From NCBI GenBank assembly GCA_019911795.1, contig JAIOJS010000153.1, positions 1 to 34,264 of the forward strand: a stretch of 34,264 nt of DNA, written 5' to 3'. Numbering within the stretch: position 1 is the first letter of the stretch; each line of letters begins with the position of its first letter. This DNA comes from Thermoanaerobaculia bacterium (GTDB lineage: Bacteria; Acidobacteriota; Thermoanaerobaculia; Multivoradales; JAIOJS01). This document shows positions 12,066 through 18,982 of the stretch, piece after piece. The position numbers were made by a program, and so were the translations under genes. A model generated the notes under the pieces. The model ran no database searches and was not told the origin of the DNA. It saw nothing but the letters and a program-made list of their open reading frames with translations.

Positions 12066-12683
12066 GTGACCGCAGCCCGCCGTGACCCAGAAGCAACCCG
12101 ACTAGCGATTCTCGATGCCGCCGAGGAGGTCTTCCTCGACCGCGGCGTTGCCGATGCGACGACGTCGGAGATCGCACGCTTGGCTGGGGTTACCAAGAGC
12201 CTGATCCACCACCACTTCGGCGGGAAGCAGGATCTGTGGACAGAGGTCAAGTTGCGGCGGTTCGCCGAGTACGGCGACGGGCAGCGACGCATGCTCCAGG
12301 AGTCGGGGGCCGACGAGGTGCTGCTCCGAGACTCGATGGCGCTGTACTTTCGCTTCCTGCAGAAGAGTCCAGAGATGGTGCGCCTCTTGGCTTGGATGTT
12401 CCTCGAGGACGACGAGAAGTGTGCTGACCTCGACGGAGAACTGATGCGCCTCGGGGTCGAGAGGATCCGTGAAACACAGGCGGCGGGCGGCTTTCGCCCG
12501 GACCTCGACCCGCGCTACATCTTGGTCGCCTTCCTTACGATGACCCAGCACTGGTTTCAGTTTCGCGATGGTTTCTTGCGGGACGTCGGCTTTGAAGGGG
12601 AGCGCGAGGCGCTCGATGATGGGTACCTGGAGTCGATGTTGAAGATCTTTTTTGAGGGAATTGGGCCGAAGGCCGAGGGTTAG
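12066..12683 (+). CDS. TetR/AcrR-family transcriptional regulator
   Basis: A 205-residue DNA-binding regulator. The N-terminal TetR helix-turn-helix is clear: RLAILDAAEEVFLDRGV, then TTSEIARLAGVTKSLIHHHFGGKQDLW (about residues 33-58), which contains the usual recognition helix. The rest is the variable ligand-binding and dimerisation half. Start is GTG 12066, with AGAGG about 12 bases upstream. It is 60 bases before an efflux operon on the same strand. Near-identical palindromes sit in its own promoter and in the pump promoter, so it probably represses both and is released by a pump substrate. The ligand is unknown. Confidence 0.93.
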   Translation: MTAARRDPEATRLAILDAAEEVFLDRGVADATTSEIARLAGVTKSLIHHHFGGKQDLWTEVKLRRFAEYGDGQRRMLQESGADEVLLRDSMALYFRFLQKSPEMVRLLAWMFLEDDEKCADLDGELMRLGVERIRETQAAGGFRPDLDPRYILVAFLTMTQHWFQFRDGFLRDVGFEGEREALDDGYLESMLKIFFEGIGPKAEG

Positions 12684-12743: not shown

Positions 12744-13835
12744 GTGAGAATGACGAAAATAGTCTCGGTGGTGGTCGGAGGATTGCTTCTAGCCGTACTC
12801 GCTGCGAGCGGCGAAGACGAGAGTGGGGACGTGACAGTACGGGTTCGAAACGTCCGCACTGCAAGGGTCGACAGCGCGCCGATCTCGGAGGAACTACCCT
12901 TTGCGGGGGTCCTTCGGGCCGCCGACCGGGCTGACCTGGCCTTCGAGTCGAGTGGGCGTCTGGACCAACGGAGCGTGGACGTTGGAGCCTGGGTGGAGAA
13001 GGGCCAATCGCTAGCCCGCCTGGACGCAGCCACTCTCCGCAATGTCAGTTTGCGGACCAGGGCCCAACTCGCGGAAGCGGCGGCTCGACTCGAGCAGCTG
13101 CAACGCGACCGACAGCGAGTGGTCGAGTTGGTTAGCGAGGGCGCCGCGACCGAGGAGGAGTTGGAGCGGGTCGGATCGTCCCTCGAGGCAGGGCAGGCGG
13201 TGGTCGACGCGGCGCAGACGGCCGCGACGGAGGCCAGCCGTCGTGAGGGGGAGGCCGTCCTTGTCGCTCCCTTCTCTGGTCGCGTCGTGGACGTGCACTT
13301 CGAAGCGGGCGAATGGGTGGATGCGGGACGAACGGTCCTGTCGATCGCTGGTCAGAAAACTCTGGAGGTGGTCGTCGATGTGCCCGAGTCGGTGATCGGG
13401 ATCCTCGAGGTTGGCGCTCCGGTGACGATTCGCTTCCCCTTCGATCGCGGCATGGAAATGACCGGACGGGTAGTTCGTCGCGGCCTCGCCGCGCGAGGAG
13501 CGGGGAGGCTCTTTCCGGTGACTGTCGAGTTGCCGCCCGGGGAGACGGACGCCGCCCGACGGCGCCTTCCCGGGATGTCGGTCGAAGCGGTGTTTCAGTT
13601 GACGACCGCCGAGGAGCTCTCGGTCCCGCTCGCCGCCGTCGTCAACCCCGGTGGGTCCGGAGCCAGGGTGGTTCGCATCTCGCAGCAGGGGACCGCTGAG
13701 CGGGTCGAGGTCGACCCCATTCGGTTGGTCGGTGACCGAGTGGTGATCAGGGGTGGCCTCAACCTCGGGGATCGAGTCGTCGTCGCGGGTGGACACGGGT
13801 TGTCGGACGGGAACCAGGTGGAGGTCGTACCGTGA
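12744..13835 (+). CDS. RND efflux periplasmic adaptor (membrane fusion protein, HlyD/AcrA-like)
   Basis: The adaptor that links an inner-membrane RND pump to an outer-membrane channel in the periplasm. The 363-residue product has an N-terminal hydrophobic segment (8-21). Split lipoyl halves are GRLDQRSVDVGAWVEKGQ (71-88) and LVAPFSGRVVDVHFEAGEWV (173-192). Between them is an Ala/Glu/Arg-rich coiled-coil hairpin (about 100-170). Beta-barrel and membrane-proximal domains follow. The start is GTG 12744 (ATG 12750 is also possible), with AGGAG nine bases upstream. Where a lipobox cysteine would be expected the sequence is LAAS (Ser22), so it is probably not lipidated. Its stop overlaps the pump start by four bases (GTGA). 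Confidence 0.93.
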   Translation: MRMTKIVSVVVGGLLLAVLAASGEDESGDVTVRVRNVRTARVDSAPISEELPFAGVLRAADRADLAFESSGRLDQRSVDVGAWVEKGQSLARLDAATLRNVSLRTRAQLAEAAARLEQLQRDRQRVVELVSEGAATEEELERVGSSLEAGQAVVDAAQTAATEASRREGEAVLVAPFSGRVVDVHFEAGEWVDAGRTVLSIAGQKTLEVVVDVPESVIGILEVGAPVTIRFPFDRGMEMTGRVVRRGLAARGAGRLFPVTVELPPGETDAARRRLPGMSVEAVFQLTTAEELSVPLAAVVNPGGSGARVVRISQQGTAERVEVDPIRLVGDRVVIRGGLNLGDRVVVAGGHGLSDGNQVEVVP

Positions 13836-16800
13836 GCACCTTGCTGACCCTCCTCTCGCGCCGGAAGCTCGTCCTGACGGCCTCCCTCCTCCTGTCCCTG
13901 ATGGGGGCGCTGTTCTGGCTACGCATGCCGCGGCAGGAGGACCCCAGAATGCCCGACTACTGGGGACAAGTGCTCGTGAGTCTGCCGGGGGCGGACGCTG
14001 AAACGGTAGAGCGTCAGCTCCTCGATCCTCTCGAGGAGCAGCTGGCCGGAGTCGATGACCTCGCTGAGATCGAGGCCACGGCCTACCCCGACCTCGTGCA
14101 CCTCCACCTGCAGTTGCGCGAAGGGGTCAAGGATACGCAGCGGGTGTGGGACGATGTGCGCGAGGCTTTGGTGGCAGCGCAACGCGACCTCCCCGCCGGC
14201 GCCTCAGAGCCGGAGCTGGATGACAATCTTCAGGATCAGGAGTCGATCGTCCTGGCCTTGATCGGTGACCCCGACGTGTTGCGGTTGCAGGATGAGGCCC
14301 GAAGGCTCGAAGACCGCCTGCTCGCGCTCCCCTTGGTCTCGAAGGTCCGCCGGATAGCCGATCCCGGTGAGCAGATCACCATCGCCCTCGAGGATGCAGC
14401 CGCGGCTCAGCTCGGCCGCTCAACGGCGGAGATCGTGGAGCAACTGAGGACTCGAACTCAGACCCTGCCGGGCGGGAACCTTCGAGTCGGAGATCATTCT
14501 GTGACCTTGAAGCCAAGGAGCGAGCTGGAGTCGATCGAAGAGATCCGGTCGACGCCGATCCTCCTGGCCGACGGGTCTTCCGTGCCTCTTGGCGCCCTAG
14601 CGGCAGTACAGCTTCAGCCTCGTCAGCCCGAACGAGCCCGGATGAGTCTCTCGGGAGTTCCCGCTGTCGGCTTGGGAGTGATCCCCCGGTCCGGGGCCAA
14701 TCTGGTCGACTTCGGCAATCAGGTTCGCACGCTGGTCGACGGCTACACTCCGCAGGGGCAATCGGTGGAGGTCCGCGAGGTCATCTTTCAGCCTGAGCGG
14801 GTGGCGCAACGCCTCAGCGACCTCAGCCGTTCTCTGCTCCTGGGCATCGCCATTGTCGCCCTGCTTCTGGTGGCCTTCATGGGGCTTAGGGTCGGGCTGC
14901 TCGTCGCCTCGGTAGTGCCGCTCGTCGTCCTCTCCTCCTTGGCCGTCTTCGCGCTGGCCGGGGGAACCCTGCAGCAGATCTCGGTGGCCGCCCTGGTTAT
15001 CGCTCTCGGCATGCTGGTCGACAACGCCATCGTCATGACCGAGAGCCTTCAGTGGCGCCTCGACCACGGCGAGAATCGAACCGAGGCAGCTGTCGGCGCG
15101 GTTCGTGAGCTGGTGGTGCCCCTGGCGGCGGCGACCGCCACGACCCTCGCTGTCTTCGTTCCGATGCTCCTTTCGCAGGGAGCTACCGCGGAGTTCACCC
15201 GGTCGATCCCTATCGTCATCATGATCACTCTCACCATGAGCTACCTCTATGCGGTGTTCTTTACACCCGCCGTGGCCAGCCGGGTACTGCGGCCACGCGC
15301 GGTCGGAAGCGACTCAGCACGTTGGCGGCGGCTCTCTCAGCTCGCCATCCGCCACCGCCGTCTGATCCTCGTTCTCGCGGGGGTCCTCCTTCTGGTCTCC
15401 TTCGTTGCAGCTTCCGGAGTGCGCAAGGAGTTCTTTCCAGCCTCGGACCGGAACCAGTTCTTGGTCGAAATCGAGCTGCCGGAGGGGACCCATCTCGATG
15501 CGACGTCGACGGCCGCCTCCGCGGTAGAAGCGGCGCTGTTGGAGCGTCCCGAGGTGACGTCTGTCCTGACCCTGGTGGGACGTAGCGTGCCCCACTTCTA
15601 CTACAACCTGAACCAGATTCCATGGAGTTCGCACCTAGCCCAGATGGTGGTCGAAACCAGCGATTTGAAGGGTGTTGCCGGTGAAATTGACTGGATCAGG
15701 GCTTGGACCGAGGTCCACCACCCCGAGATCCAGCTGGTCGCGCGGGCCCTCGAACAGGGACCGCCCGTTCTGGCGCCCATCGAGCTGCGACTCTTCGGCG
15801 AGAGCTTGGAGGAGCTGGCGATCGCCGCCGATCTCGTCTCGGCCGAAGTGAGCCGGGTTCCGGGGACGGTAGATGTGCGCCATGACCTCGGTCCAGGGGC
15901 ACCCCTTCTACGGTTCGAGATCGACGATGCAGCGGCCGGGCGTGTTGGCGTCGATCGAAGGTCGGTGGCGCAGGCGCTCTACGGCCGGACCCGTGGCCTT
16001 TCGGTCGGCGAGCTGCGTTCGGGAGATGATCCCATCCCGATTCTGGTCCGCTCCGCCGCCGGTGAGGACTACGGACTCGATCAACTTGGATCCATCGACG
16101 TTCGGACTCCTGGTGGTCAGACCCTGCCACTCTCCCAGGTGGCCAGGACTGAGCTCGAATGGAGTCCGGCGGCGATCAACCACCGAAATCGGCGCCGGGT
16201 GGTGCGAGTGCTCTCACAATTGACTCCGGGCGAGAGCTACTCCGACGTCTTGAGGACCCTGAGGCCGCGTCTGGCCGAAGTCGAACTTCCATCGGGAGTA
16301 GAGATCGAGTACGGCGGAGCGGTGGAGGGATCGGGACAGGCGAACGACGCCATGCTGCGAACCTTCCCCGTCGGCGCGCTCCTCCTCATCGGCATCTTGA
16401 TGGCGGAATTCAATTCTTTCCGGCGCCTCGCGATCATCCTCGCAACGGTGCCTTTGGCGGCGGCGGGAGTGATCCCCGGGTTGCTGCTAGCGGATCAGCC
16501 CTTCGGCTTCATGTCTCTCCTCGGCATCATCGCCTTGGTCGGGGTGGTGGTCAACAATGCCATCGTTCTTCTCGATGTCATCGAGAGTGAACGCGAGGGT
16601 GGTTCCGACGTCGAGTCGGCGGTGGCGAGCGCGGTGGAGCGACGAACTCGGCCGATTCTCCTGACGAGCGCGACGACCGTCGCTGGATTGATCCCCCTCG
16701 CCCTCTCCGGCACGACCCTCTGGCCGCCGCTCGCCTGGACCCTGATCTCAGGGTTGGTAGCGTCGACGGCGCTGACCCTCCTGGTCGTTCCGGCGCTCTA

Positions 16801-18484
16801 CCTGGTCCTCTTTCCCTCTTCCAAGGACACCGTGGAGGGGAGCTCCGTGTCCAGTCACCTGGCCAAGGCGGCTCTCCTCGGCCTAGTGCTCCTGGTTCTG
16901 CCCAGCGGGCTCTCGGCTCAGGCCGAGGTGGCCCAGGCTGAAGCAACCAGGGCTAAAGCAACCAAGGCTGAGACTGGATCGATGTGGACGGTCGAGCGGG
17001 TGGCCCGCGAGGCGGCGAAGCGACCCGCAGCGACGGCTAGTCGATTGCGGACCGAGGCGGCGAGGCACGAGGCTTCGGCAGTGTCCCGAGGTCGATTCGG
17101 TCCGCAGCTGGTGGCCGAAGCCGGAGTAGCCGAACAGGACCGCGATCTGACGCTGAGTACCGCCGTCGGCGATTTCCAGTTCGGGTCCAGTCGACGCGAG
17201 CATGGCGCAATCATGCTGGTCCAGCCTCTGGTGGATCTGGGCCGGCGTTTCGCGGTCGAGAGCGCGCGCCAGGCTTCGATGGCAGAAGGTGGGCTCGAAG
17301 ATCGACGAAGCCAGCGGCTCCAACTAGAAGCCATCGAGGGCCTTCTCGCTCTCTACGAGATCGATGCGCGACTGTCGGCGGGTCGTGAACTCGAGGCTAG
17401 CCTGGACGCTACCTCGCGGGACACCGAGGCCCGGGTGCGCTCCGGACGCGAACTGGAGGTGTCGGCTCTCAAGTTTCGTCTCGCCCTTCTGGAGCTGCGC
17501 CAGCAGTTGGAGGCGCTGGAGCGGCAGCGAGCGGTTGTCGCTTGGGATCTTGCCCGGAGAGTTGCGGTCGATCCGGAGGTCGAGTCCTTCGGACGACTCG
17601 CGGACCTCCCCGACGCGTCCCCGACCAGGCTTCCGTCGAATCTGCCTCTGGCCGTAGCGGAGGCTTTCGAACGGAGACTTGATCTCCGGGCGCGGCAGGC
17701 CGAGGCCGAGGCCACGAGACAGCAGCAGAAGACACAAGAGGCTTTACGATGGCCTCGCCTCGATGCCCAGGTGGGATTTCAGTGGGATTCCTCGACCCCC
17801 TTCGCGGACGACCTCTGGGCGGAGGGCGGTCTCGCGGTGAGTTGGAGACCGTGGCAGTCCGGCAGATCCCAAACCATCCGGGCGTTGGAGAGTCGTCACG
17901 GAGCGCTGGCCGCTGAGCTCGAGGAGTCGCACCGGGACGTCGAACTCGAAGTTCGCCAGGCCTGGGCCGCTCTCGCTACGGCCAGGGAGGAGCGAAGTCT
18001 CGCCGAGGCCTCCTTCGAACTGGCGGCCGAGACTCGGCGGGTGGAAAAGGTCCGCTATGAGGCCGGTCGAGTCACCGCCAACGATCTCCTCGTCGCCGAG
18101 GCTGACCTGGCGCAGCAGAACGCGGGGCGGACCCTGGCCCGGGTGGCGGTGCGAAGGGCGCGAACGCAACTCGACTTCGCACTCGGTAGAGATCTAGCGT
18201 CGCGATCCGATCCTCGGGACACTAGCTTTCGACAACGCGAGGTCGGCGGAGTTGATCGGCTAGCCCTCTGGGGGGAGGGCGGCCCGACTCGCGGTCTCGC
18301 CGCCGAGCACGACGACGATCTCCCCTTTGACGCGCTCGCGTTCACCGAGGATCTCGATCAACTCGCTGAGGGTTCCGCGGAGAACCTCCTCGTGGAGTTT
18401 GGTCAACTCTCGTCCTACGGCGGCTCGGCGGTCTCCGAGAGCCTCCTGGGCATCGCGGAGACTCTTGACGATTCGATGCGGTGA
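13832..18484 (+). CDS. RND efflux pump fused in frame to a TolC-like outer-membrane factor
   Basis: One uninterrupted 1550-codon frame. Residues 1 to about 998 are a full RND transporter: TM1 (12-30), two large periplasmic loops, helix clusters at about 330-480 and 840-995, and the TM4 motif GMLVDNAIV with D397 (the usual second acid is Asn398). It would drive proton-coupled export. Residues 1006-1030 look like a signal peptide ending LSA-QA. Then comes an outer-membrane-factor region (about 1047-1455) with two long coiled-coil repeats and the typical YEAGRVTANDLLVAEADLA segment. A final stretch of about 95 residues resembles nothing and mostly lies antisense to rsmI. A Shine-Dalgarno-like site and GTG at the junction could start a separate outer-membrane factor. 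Start GTG 13832 overlaps the adaptor stop. The efflux role is secure; substrates and the physical state of the fusion are not. Confidence 0.9.
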   Translation: MSTLLTLLSRRKLVLTASLLLSLMGALFWLRMPRQEDPRMPDYWGQVLVSLPGADAETVERQLLDPLEEQLAGVDDLAEIEATAYPDLVHLHLQLREGVKDTQRVWDDVREALVAAQRDLPAGASEPELDDNLQDQESIVLALIGDPDVLRLQDEARRLEDRLLALPLVSKVRRIADPGEQITIALEDAAAAQLGRSTAEIVEQLRTRTQTLPGGNLRVGDHSVTLKPRSELESIEEIRSTPILLADGSSVPLGALAAVQLQPRQPERARMSLSGVPAVGLGVIPRSGANLVDFGNQVRTLVDGYTPQGQSVEVREVIFQPERVAQRLSDLSRSLLLGIAIVALLLVAFMGLRVGLLVASVVPLVVLSSLAVFALAGGTLQQISVAALVIALGMLVDNAIVMTESLQWRLDHGENRTEAAVGAVRELVVPLAAATATTLAVFVPMLLSQGATAEFTRSIPIVIMITLTMSYLYAVFFTPAVASRVLRPRAVGSDSARWRRLSQLAIRHRRLILVLAGVLLLVSFVAASGVRKEFFPASDRNQFLVEIELPEGTHLDATSTAASAVEAALLERPEVTSVLTLVGRSVPHFYYNLNQIPWSSHLAQMVVETSDLKGVAGEIDWIRAWTEVHHPEIQLVARALEQGPPVLAPIELRLFGESLEELAIAADLVSAEVSRVPGTVDVRHDLGPGAPLLRFEIDDAAAGRVGVDRRSVAQALYGRTRGLSVGELRSGDDPIPILVRSAAGEDYGLDQLGSIDVRTPGGQTLPLSQVARTELEWSPAAINHRNRRRVVRVLSQLTPGESYSDVLRTLRPRLAEVELPSGVEIEYGGAVEGSGQANDAMLRTFPVGALLLIGILMAEFNSFRRLAIILATVPLAAAGVIPGLLLADQPFGFMSLLGIIALVGVVVNNAIVLLDVIESEREGGSDVESAVASAVERRTRPILLTSATTVAGLIPLALSGTTLWPPLAWTLISGLVASTALTLLVVPALYLVLFPSSKDTVEGSSVSSHLAKAALLGLVLLVLPSGLSAQAEVAQAEATRAKATKAETGSMWTVERVAREAAKRPAATASRLRTEAARHEASAVSRGRFGPQLVAEAGVAEQDRDLTLSTAVGDFQFGSSRREHGAIMLVQPLVDLGRRFAVESARQASMAEGGLEDRRSQRLQLEAIEGLLALYEIDARLSAGRELEASLDATSRDTEARVRSGRELEVSALKFRLALLELRQQLEALERQRAVVAWDLARRVAVDPEVESFGRLADLPDASPTRLPSNLPLAVAEAFERRLDLRARQAEAEATRQQQKTQEALRWPRLDAQVGFQWDSSTPFADDLWAEGGLAVSWRPWQSGRSQTIRALESRHGALAAELEESHRDVELEVRQAWAALATAREERSLAEASFELAAETRRVEKVRYEAGRVTANDLLVAEADLAQQNAGRTLARVAVRRARTQLDFALGRDLASRSDPRDTSFRQREVGGVDRLALWGEGGPTRGLAAEHDDDLPFDALAFTEDLDQLAEGSAENLLVEFGQLSSYGGSAVSESLLGIAETLDDSMR
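16834..16849 (+). promoter_or_regulatory. Internal ribosome binding site and in-frame GTG at the RND/outer-membrane-factor junction
   Basis: GGAGGGG at 16834-16840 is followed six bases later by GTG 16847-16849, in the same frame as the RND pump (codon 1006). The codons after it encode SSHLAK and then a hydrophobic core ending in LSA-QA, a textbook signal peptide. Sequence and spacing are seen directly; use as a start is inference. Confidence 0.5.
16847..18484 (+). CDS. Possible separately translated TolC-like outer-membrane efflux protein (nested in frame)
   Basis: Alternative product of the fused frame, 545 residues starting at the internal GTG. It begins with a signal peptide (residues 1 to about 20, cleavage after LSA) and a short Ala/Lys/Glu repeat. 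Two homologous alpha-helical halves of the outer-membrane-factor family follow. The second half contains RQAWAALATAREERSLAEAS and a final LDFALGRDL, near residue 450, where family members normally end. This protein would form the trimeric outer-membrane exit duct for the adaptor and pump encoded just upstream. It is listed separately because outer-membrane factors are normally independent polypeptides; whether it is made alone, as a fusion, or both is undecided. Confidence 0.5.
   Translation: MSSHLAKAALLGLVLLVLPSGLSAQAEVAQAEATRAKATKAETGSMWTVERVAREAAKRPAATASRLRTEAARHEASAVSRGRFGPQLVAEAGVAEQDRDLTLSTAVGDFQFGSSRREHGAIMLVQPLVDLGRRFAVESARQASMAEGGLEDRRSQRLQLEAIEGLLALYEIDARLSAGRELEASLDATSRDTEARVRSGRELEVSALKFRLALLELRQQLEALERQRAVVAWDLARRVAVDPEVESFGRLADLPDASPTRLPSNLPLAVAEAFERRLDLRARQAEAEATRQQQKTQEALRWPRLDAQVGFQWDSSTPFADDLWAEGGLAVSWRPWQSGRSQTIRALESRHGALAAELEESHRDVELEVRQAWAALATAREERSLAEASFELAAETRRVEKVRYEAGRVTANDLLVAEADLAQQNAGRTLARVAVRRARTQLDFALGRDLASRSDPRDTSFRQREVGGVDRLALWGEGGPTRGLAAEHDDDLPFDALAFTEDLDQLAEGSAENLLVEFGQLSSYGGSAVSESLLGIAETLDDSMR
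16937..16972 (+). repeat. Short 15-base tandem repeat in coding sequence
   Basis: GCTGAAGCAACCAGG (16937-16951) and GCTAAAGCAACCAAG (16952-16966) are followed by a partial third copy GCTGAG. They encode AEATR, AKATK, AE just after the predicted signal peptide. The repeat is a likely flexible linker grown by slippage. Confidence 0.6.
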
Positions 18485-18982
18485 CTCGAAGATCACGATG
18501 GAGTGGTCGAGTGCTCCCCACTCGGTGTAGAAGCGGCGCCTCTTGCCAGTCTTGACCGGAGGGAAGCCGACGAAGGTGTAGGGCAAGGGAGGCAATCCAG
18601 AGAGCACGAGGGCGGCGAGTGGAGCGGAAGGGCCGGGAACGGCTTCGACCGCATGCCCCGCCTCGATCGCCGCCTTGACGACGTGGTATCCGGGATCCGA
18701 AAGCAGGGGTGTTCCGGCGTCGCTGACCAAGGCTACGGTGAGTCCCCTTTCGAGGGCTTCCAGGAGCTGAGGGACTCGGTTCCGCTCGTTGTGCTCATGC
18801 ACCGAGAGGAGCCGTCGCTTGACCCCGATGTGCGACATCAACCGCCCCGTCCTGCGAGTGTCTTCGCAAGCGATCAGATCGGCCTCTTCGAGACTCGCCT
18901 GGGCGCGCGGAGAGAGGTCGTCCAGATTACCGATCGGAGTGGAGACCACGACCAGTCTCCCGCTCCCCTCCCCTGTGGTCAC
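18260..18982 (-). CDS. rsmI: 16S rRNA 2'-O-ribose C1402 methyltransferase RsmI
   Basis: Methylates the ribose of C1402 in 16S rRNA with S-adenosylmethionine. The 240-residue product has the family hallmarks LVVVSTPIGNLDDLSPRA (9-26), CEDTRRTGRL, SDAGTPLLSDPG and VPGPSA. It also has the later segments FYTEWGALDHSIVIFESPHR and the terminal KGEIVVVLGG. E. coli RsmI is about 286 residues; this one stops soon after the catalytic domain and lacks the small C-terminal helical extension. Start is GTG 18982, 25 bases after the SurA-like gene. Its last 225 bases are overlapped on the opposite strand by the tail of the efflux fusion frame. It is the last gene of the rpmE-to-rsmI run. Confidence 0.93.
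   Translation of the reverse strand: MTTGEGSGRLVVVSTPIGNLDDLSPRAQASLEEADLIACEDTRRTGRLMSHIGVKRRLLSVHEHNERNRVPQLLEALERGLTVALVSDAGTPLLSDPGYHVVKAAIEAGHAVEAVPGPSAPLAALVLSGLPPLPYTFVGFPPVKTGKRRRFYTEWGALDHSIVIFESPHRIVKSLRDAQEALGDRRAAVGRELTKLHEEVLRGTLSELIEILGERERVKGEIVVVLGGETASRAALPPEG

Follow-up and report, generated by a model that had tools for sequence, protein, structure and literature searches.

TolC-type outer-membrane ducts are usually regarded as separately made proteins that are often shared among pumps, and the topology established for AcrB places the C-terminus of an RND permease in the cytoplasm after 12 transmembrane (TM) segments. One bacterial membrane protein that continues in frame into a signal peptide and then into a protein facing the periplasm, the two being separated by signal peptidase, is the FbcH cytochrome b / cytochrome c1 polyprotein of Bradyrhizobium japonicum. 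A search of the open literature produced no paper describing natural fusions of an RND permease with an outer-membrane factor (OMF), or their processing. The RND-OMF architecture is already visible in databases; what is new here is a conserved internal signal peptidase site, the interchange of fused and split forms, and a match to the Bacteroidetes Q-rule in a second pump family.

Analysis of the window (the whole stretch of 34,264 nucleotides that was analysed, from a Thermoanaerobaculia bacterium) showed a frame of 1550 codons at 13832-18484 on the forward strand, open throughout, which encoded a full-length RND permease and then a complete TolC-type OMF without an intervening stop. On the same strand, the frame was preceded by a TetR-family regulator (12066-12683; TetR_N, 56.1 bits), the first gene of the conserved neighbourhood, and by a periplasmic adaptor (RND_mfp, 12744-13835; TIGR01730, 200.5 bits against a cut-off of 94.9), the 3' end of which shared 4 bases (GTGA) with the beginning of the RND frame. 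An adaptor encoded with the RND permease is expected of a tripartite RND pump operon. The order TetR, adaptor and fused RND-OMF was identical in the own-order genomes examined, a TetR relative was upstream of the adaptor in the order-level relatives examined, and the adaptor was directly upstream of the RND part in both the fused and the split loci examined. The own-order neighbourhood stretches examined contained no OMF match besides the fused one. On other contigs, the window genome contained a dozen or so further genes, or pieces of genes, for RND permeases, 22-35% identical to the fused RND part, and its sole other OMF match was a separate 463-codon frame (C324:18640-19218).

The RND permease module was located at 13832-16813 on the forward strand (residues 1-994). 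Its ACR_tran (PF00873) match spanned residues 8-993 and covered profile positions 6-1020 of 1021, with 516.8 bits against a cut-off of 28. The module had the 12 hydrophobic/TM segments of a full-length permease, which places its C-terminus in the cytoplasm. The proton-relay Asp of TM4 was present (LVDNAIV at 395-401, aligned with LVDDAII of MexK), the first Asp of the motif being kept while the second Asp of MexK was Asn in the window. The closest solved structures to the RND part were MexK (420 bits) and then the transporter 6vej (409 bits).

The predicted mature OMF, of TolC type, was placed at 16919-18211 on the forward strand (residues 1030-1460). The best stretch of the OEP (PF02321) match covered residues 1274-1452, and the AlphaFold2 model of residues 978-1550 showed a complete TolC topology with helices H1-H8, four long beta strands and the two-repeat fold. 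In this model, H1 was at about residue 1054, H3 and H7 were long, H8 ended near residue 1451, and pLDDT was above 95 over most of the core. Foldseek with the OMF model matched TolC, OprN, VceC and CusC in the PDB, with an E value of 8e-18 to 1ek9 (TolC). Phmmer with the OMF part alone matched no solved structure, while a profile from 24 fused OMFs did match TolC, the match starting near the mature TolC N-terminus. The preliminary description of an RND transporter, a signal-peptide-like segment and an OMF in one 1550-codon frame was borne out by the two Pfam matches and the modelled topology.

As a correction to that description, the duct ends near residue 1460, and the last 75 or so residues are probably not part of the device. 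The C-terminal tail (18260-18484, forward strand; 225 bases, residues 1477-1550) had low pLDDT in the AlphaFold2 model, produced no family match, and ran antisense to rsmI (18260-18982, reverse strand; TIGR00096, 212 bits). The same-genus relative had no such tail, its frame ending near position 1474. Given the antisense position over rsmI and the absence from this relative, the tail is probably a stop-loss overrun, or a local error, in the window. Two near-identical Salinisphaera fusions (L101 and L103) extended past the OMF in long C-terminal tails that finish in a conserved sequence (FKPIEWRAAYFTP...RLRLSQWQPP).

At the junction, TM prediction showed a thirteenth hydrophobic segment (residues 1010-1028) after the 12 of the RND part; the preliminary description had inferred a correctly oriented signal peptide behind a cytoplasmic RND C-terminus. 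This segment forms the core of a predicted Sec signal peptide at 16847-16918 on the forward strand (residues 1006-1029, VSSHLAK-AALLGLVLLVLP-SGLSA), which is internal to the fused frame, whereas a conventional OMF is encoded by a gene of its own and starts with its signal peptide. The predicted signal peptidase I site was at 16916-16921 on the forward strand, between A1029 and Q1030 (LSA-QA), with the cut between bases 16918 and 16919; an alternative cleavage position was predicted between A1031 and E1032.

The layout of n-, h- and c-regions was common to the 26 fused genes of the window family, the n-regions being mostly net positive. An [AVST]-x-A site followed the hydrophobic core in 25 of the 26 despite divergent surrounding sequence, the exception being L013 with only AHG-Q. 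The LSA-QA of the window aligned with ASA-Q of the same-genus relative (L009) and AAA-Q of L010, and AQA-Q, ARA-Q and ANA-Q were also found at the junction of relatives. A loose site score was not significant against shuffles in the Ala-rich linkers of this family, and a narrower test of the Ala-Gln pair was used in its place because of that richness in Ala. Of 24 fused genes, 12 had Ala-Gln at this position, whereas 2000 shuffles gave 4.3 on average and never more than 9, so amino-acid composition alone does not account for the junction site. The Ala-Gln test and the Q-rule test described below were the only significant ones for site conservation.

Counting that of the window, 26 genomes contained the fusion, 25 of them others, so the same architecture sought in related genomes was recovered, and genus- and order-level relatives proved to be fused and not uniformly two-gene. 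The 26 comprised 15 from the window's own order of Acidobacteriota (window included), one from Myxococcota (L044) and 10 from Salinisphaera-like Gammaproteobacteria or organisms close to them, including an isolate contig at 31x (NZ_JAGHQU010000001.1, L042). The 15 own-order fusions included L021, in which a contig end cuts the frame after entry into the OMF, and L089 (genome G027). In L089 the RND part was split over several frames, yet its junction with the OMF was intact and in frame, reflecting either a low-quality assembly or a decaying gene. Strong matches to the fusion were obtained in 14 of 72 own-order genomes, in families f1, f4, f6 and f7 only, and in 4 of 247 genomes of a phylum-wide sample. 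A 2294-codon frame (L048) was rejected as a further fusion; its family match was in the RND part only, and it is an accidental open frame.

Four two-gene relatives (L073, L092, L094 and L096) were placed by the tree inside the same 100/100 clade as the fused forms. In these split loci, the OMF ATG and the RND stop lay in an overlap of the two genes, 8 bases long in L073, L092 and L096 and 4 in L094, and the signal peptide was the normal N-terminal one of the OMF, at the place matching the fused junction. The same parts are thus found both joined and separate, which is what cutting of the fused form would predict. Mapped on the tree, the fused/split label required three changes or more, and a single origin without reversals was therefore rejected. 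Each change may be a fusion or a fission on this tree, in which deep forks were weak in one half of the clade and two members (L039 and L040) were cut by contig ends. Another member of the same RND clade (L075, genome G063) had the adaptor and no adjacent OMF; it presumably uses another duct.

A second pump family showed the same arrangement. Frames of Bacteroidota CusA/CzcA (TIGR00914) pumps were often 1435-1504 codons long, with ACR_tran and OEP in one frame (L111, for example), and complete plasmids of isolates such as Spirosoma linguale DSM 74, Hymenobacter and Chryseobacterium carried fusions of this type. The design thus recurs in at least three bacterial phyla, plus a fourth in another pump family. 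Ala, Gly or Ser followed by Gln ([AGS]-Q) came after the hydrophobic core in all 23 Bacteroidota frames read at the junction, 21 anchored by script and two (L117 and L124) read by eye. Ala-Gln was found in 18 of the 21 frames analysed, against a shuffle mean of 3.3. Under the Bacteroidetes Q-rule, most signal peptidase I substrates expose Gln at +1 (PMC5837995), and the Bacteroidota junction, in fitting this rule, has the look of a genuine processing site. The closest relatives of the window clade were unfused and unfused TIGR00914 frames were present in the same Bacteroidota genomes, which suggests that the CusA/CzcA fusion arose separately from that of the window.

From the sequence evidence, we infer that the gene product is very probably a polyprotein that signal peptidase I cuts into two mature proteins. 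The site kept in relatives, the true N-terminal signal peptide of the split forms and the Q-rule match in Bacteroidota favour this reading, and they strengthen the earlier suggestion of a polyprotein cut at LSA-QA. The ribosome would make the 12-TM RND permease with its C-terminus in the cytoplasm, and residues 1006-1029 would then enter the Sec translocon in signal-peptide orientation, taking the downstream chain to the periplasm. Signal peptidase I would cut after A1029 to give a TolC-type duct starting at Q1030, and the freed duct would trimerise in the outer membrane, while the signal peptide would stay on the RND part as a thirteenth TM helix or be trimmed. Together with the adaptor encoded immediately before them, the RND part and the duct would form an ordinary tripartite efflux pump with RND to OMF fixed at 1:1, a ratio that may be the benefit of the arrangement.

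An improbable alternative is internal initiation, in which ribosomes enter a second time within the frame and produce an OMF that starts with the signal peptide, translation onward from the RND part being incidental. The window has an in-frame GTG at 16847-16849 on the forward strand, preceded by GGAGG at a distance of 8 bases, and this possible second start was absent from the preliminary description; the split relatives use overlapping starts at about the junction position. Such a start is, however, not conserved. No in-frame ATG, GTG or TTG was found between TM12 and the hydrophobic core in 8 of the 26 fused genes of the window family or in 10 of the 21 Bacteroidota fusions, nor did the same-genus relative have an in-frame start ahead of the core, and an in-frame start with a Shine-Dalgarno match of at least 5 was present in only 4 of the 26. 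Extra OMF made from GTG 16847 is possible in the window, where it could add to the polyprotein route but would not generally replace it.

Slightly more improbable is a stable one-piece pump and duct, also proposed earlier and now disfavoured, in which the junction segment stays as TM13 and the OMF is tethered to the RND part across the periplasm. The frame is uninterrupted by a stop, the hydrophobicity of the segment would suffice for a TM helix, and a tether would likewise fix the ratio, at 3:3. Yet a pure TM anchor needs no A-x-A-Q site, and the site is kept; two-gene forms also occur within the clade. The reach of the linker bears on the same question. The stretch between the end of the core and duct helix H1, placed from the AlphaFold2 model of the window ten residues before a conserved RP, comprised about 9-13 residues in L044, L097, L009 and L089, and about 29 in the window; fully stretched, these would reach less than about 46 Å and about 100 Å, respectively. 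The periplasmic part of AcrB measures about 40+30 Å, and the equatorial domain, to which H1 belongs, is at mid-height of the 100 Å alpha-barrel (PMC8277102). By these dimensions, an uncut chain would have to bridge the AcrB periplasmic part plus half of the alpha-barrel, at least about 120 Å. With canonical pump geometry assumed, the short linkers imply that an uncut chain could not join such a pump.

Processing of the polyprotein by another protease, or a cut that does not release a working duct, is very unlikely, as the site, the charge pattern and the Gln at +1 are those of signal peptidase I substrates. An assembly artefact, or a stop lost in the window genome only, is almost certainly not the explanation of the junction, although the genome is a draft of 606 contigs and the frame breaks in one relative (L089), given that the fusion is conserved across 26 genomes, isolate contig L042 among them, and that the CusA/CzcA type is found on complete plasmids; the tail at 18260-18484 is excepted.

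The polyprotein reading gives the locus a wider meaning. A pump that makes its duct in the same chain would have a dedicated duct and a fixed stoichiometry, with the internal signal peptide as a bacterial processing site. Somewhat more probably than otherwise, RND pumps have adopted the polyprotein format more than once, with the internal signal peptide as a processing device that fixes the pump to duct ratio at synthesis and delivers a dedicated duct with the pump, which would make this a general way to build tripartite pumps and not a rarity. Because annotation labels the fused proteins as RND transporters and no more, their ducts are missed in any count, and the natural fused/split pairs offer a ready comparison on whether co-synthesis aids assembly.

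Compared with known systems, the locus resembles the MexJK, TriABC (with OpmH as duct) and AcrAB-TolC pumps in its RND part, nearest to MexK, its TolC-fold OMF, its upstream adaptor and its TetR regulator, and differs from them in that RND and OMF are translated as a single chain that contains an internal signal peptide. The Bacteroidota CusA/CzcA fusions share with the window the order of RND part, signal-peptide-like segment and OMF in one frame (PF00873 and PF02321) and the A-Q site; unlike the window, they belong to the heavy-metal RND branch, with about 24% identity to the window RND, and are annotated merely as CusA/CzcA transporters. FbcH is unlike the window in belonging to a respiratory complex, in the second product staying in the inner membrane, and in being unrelated in sequence.
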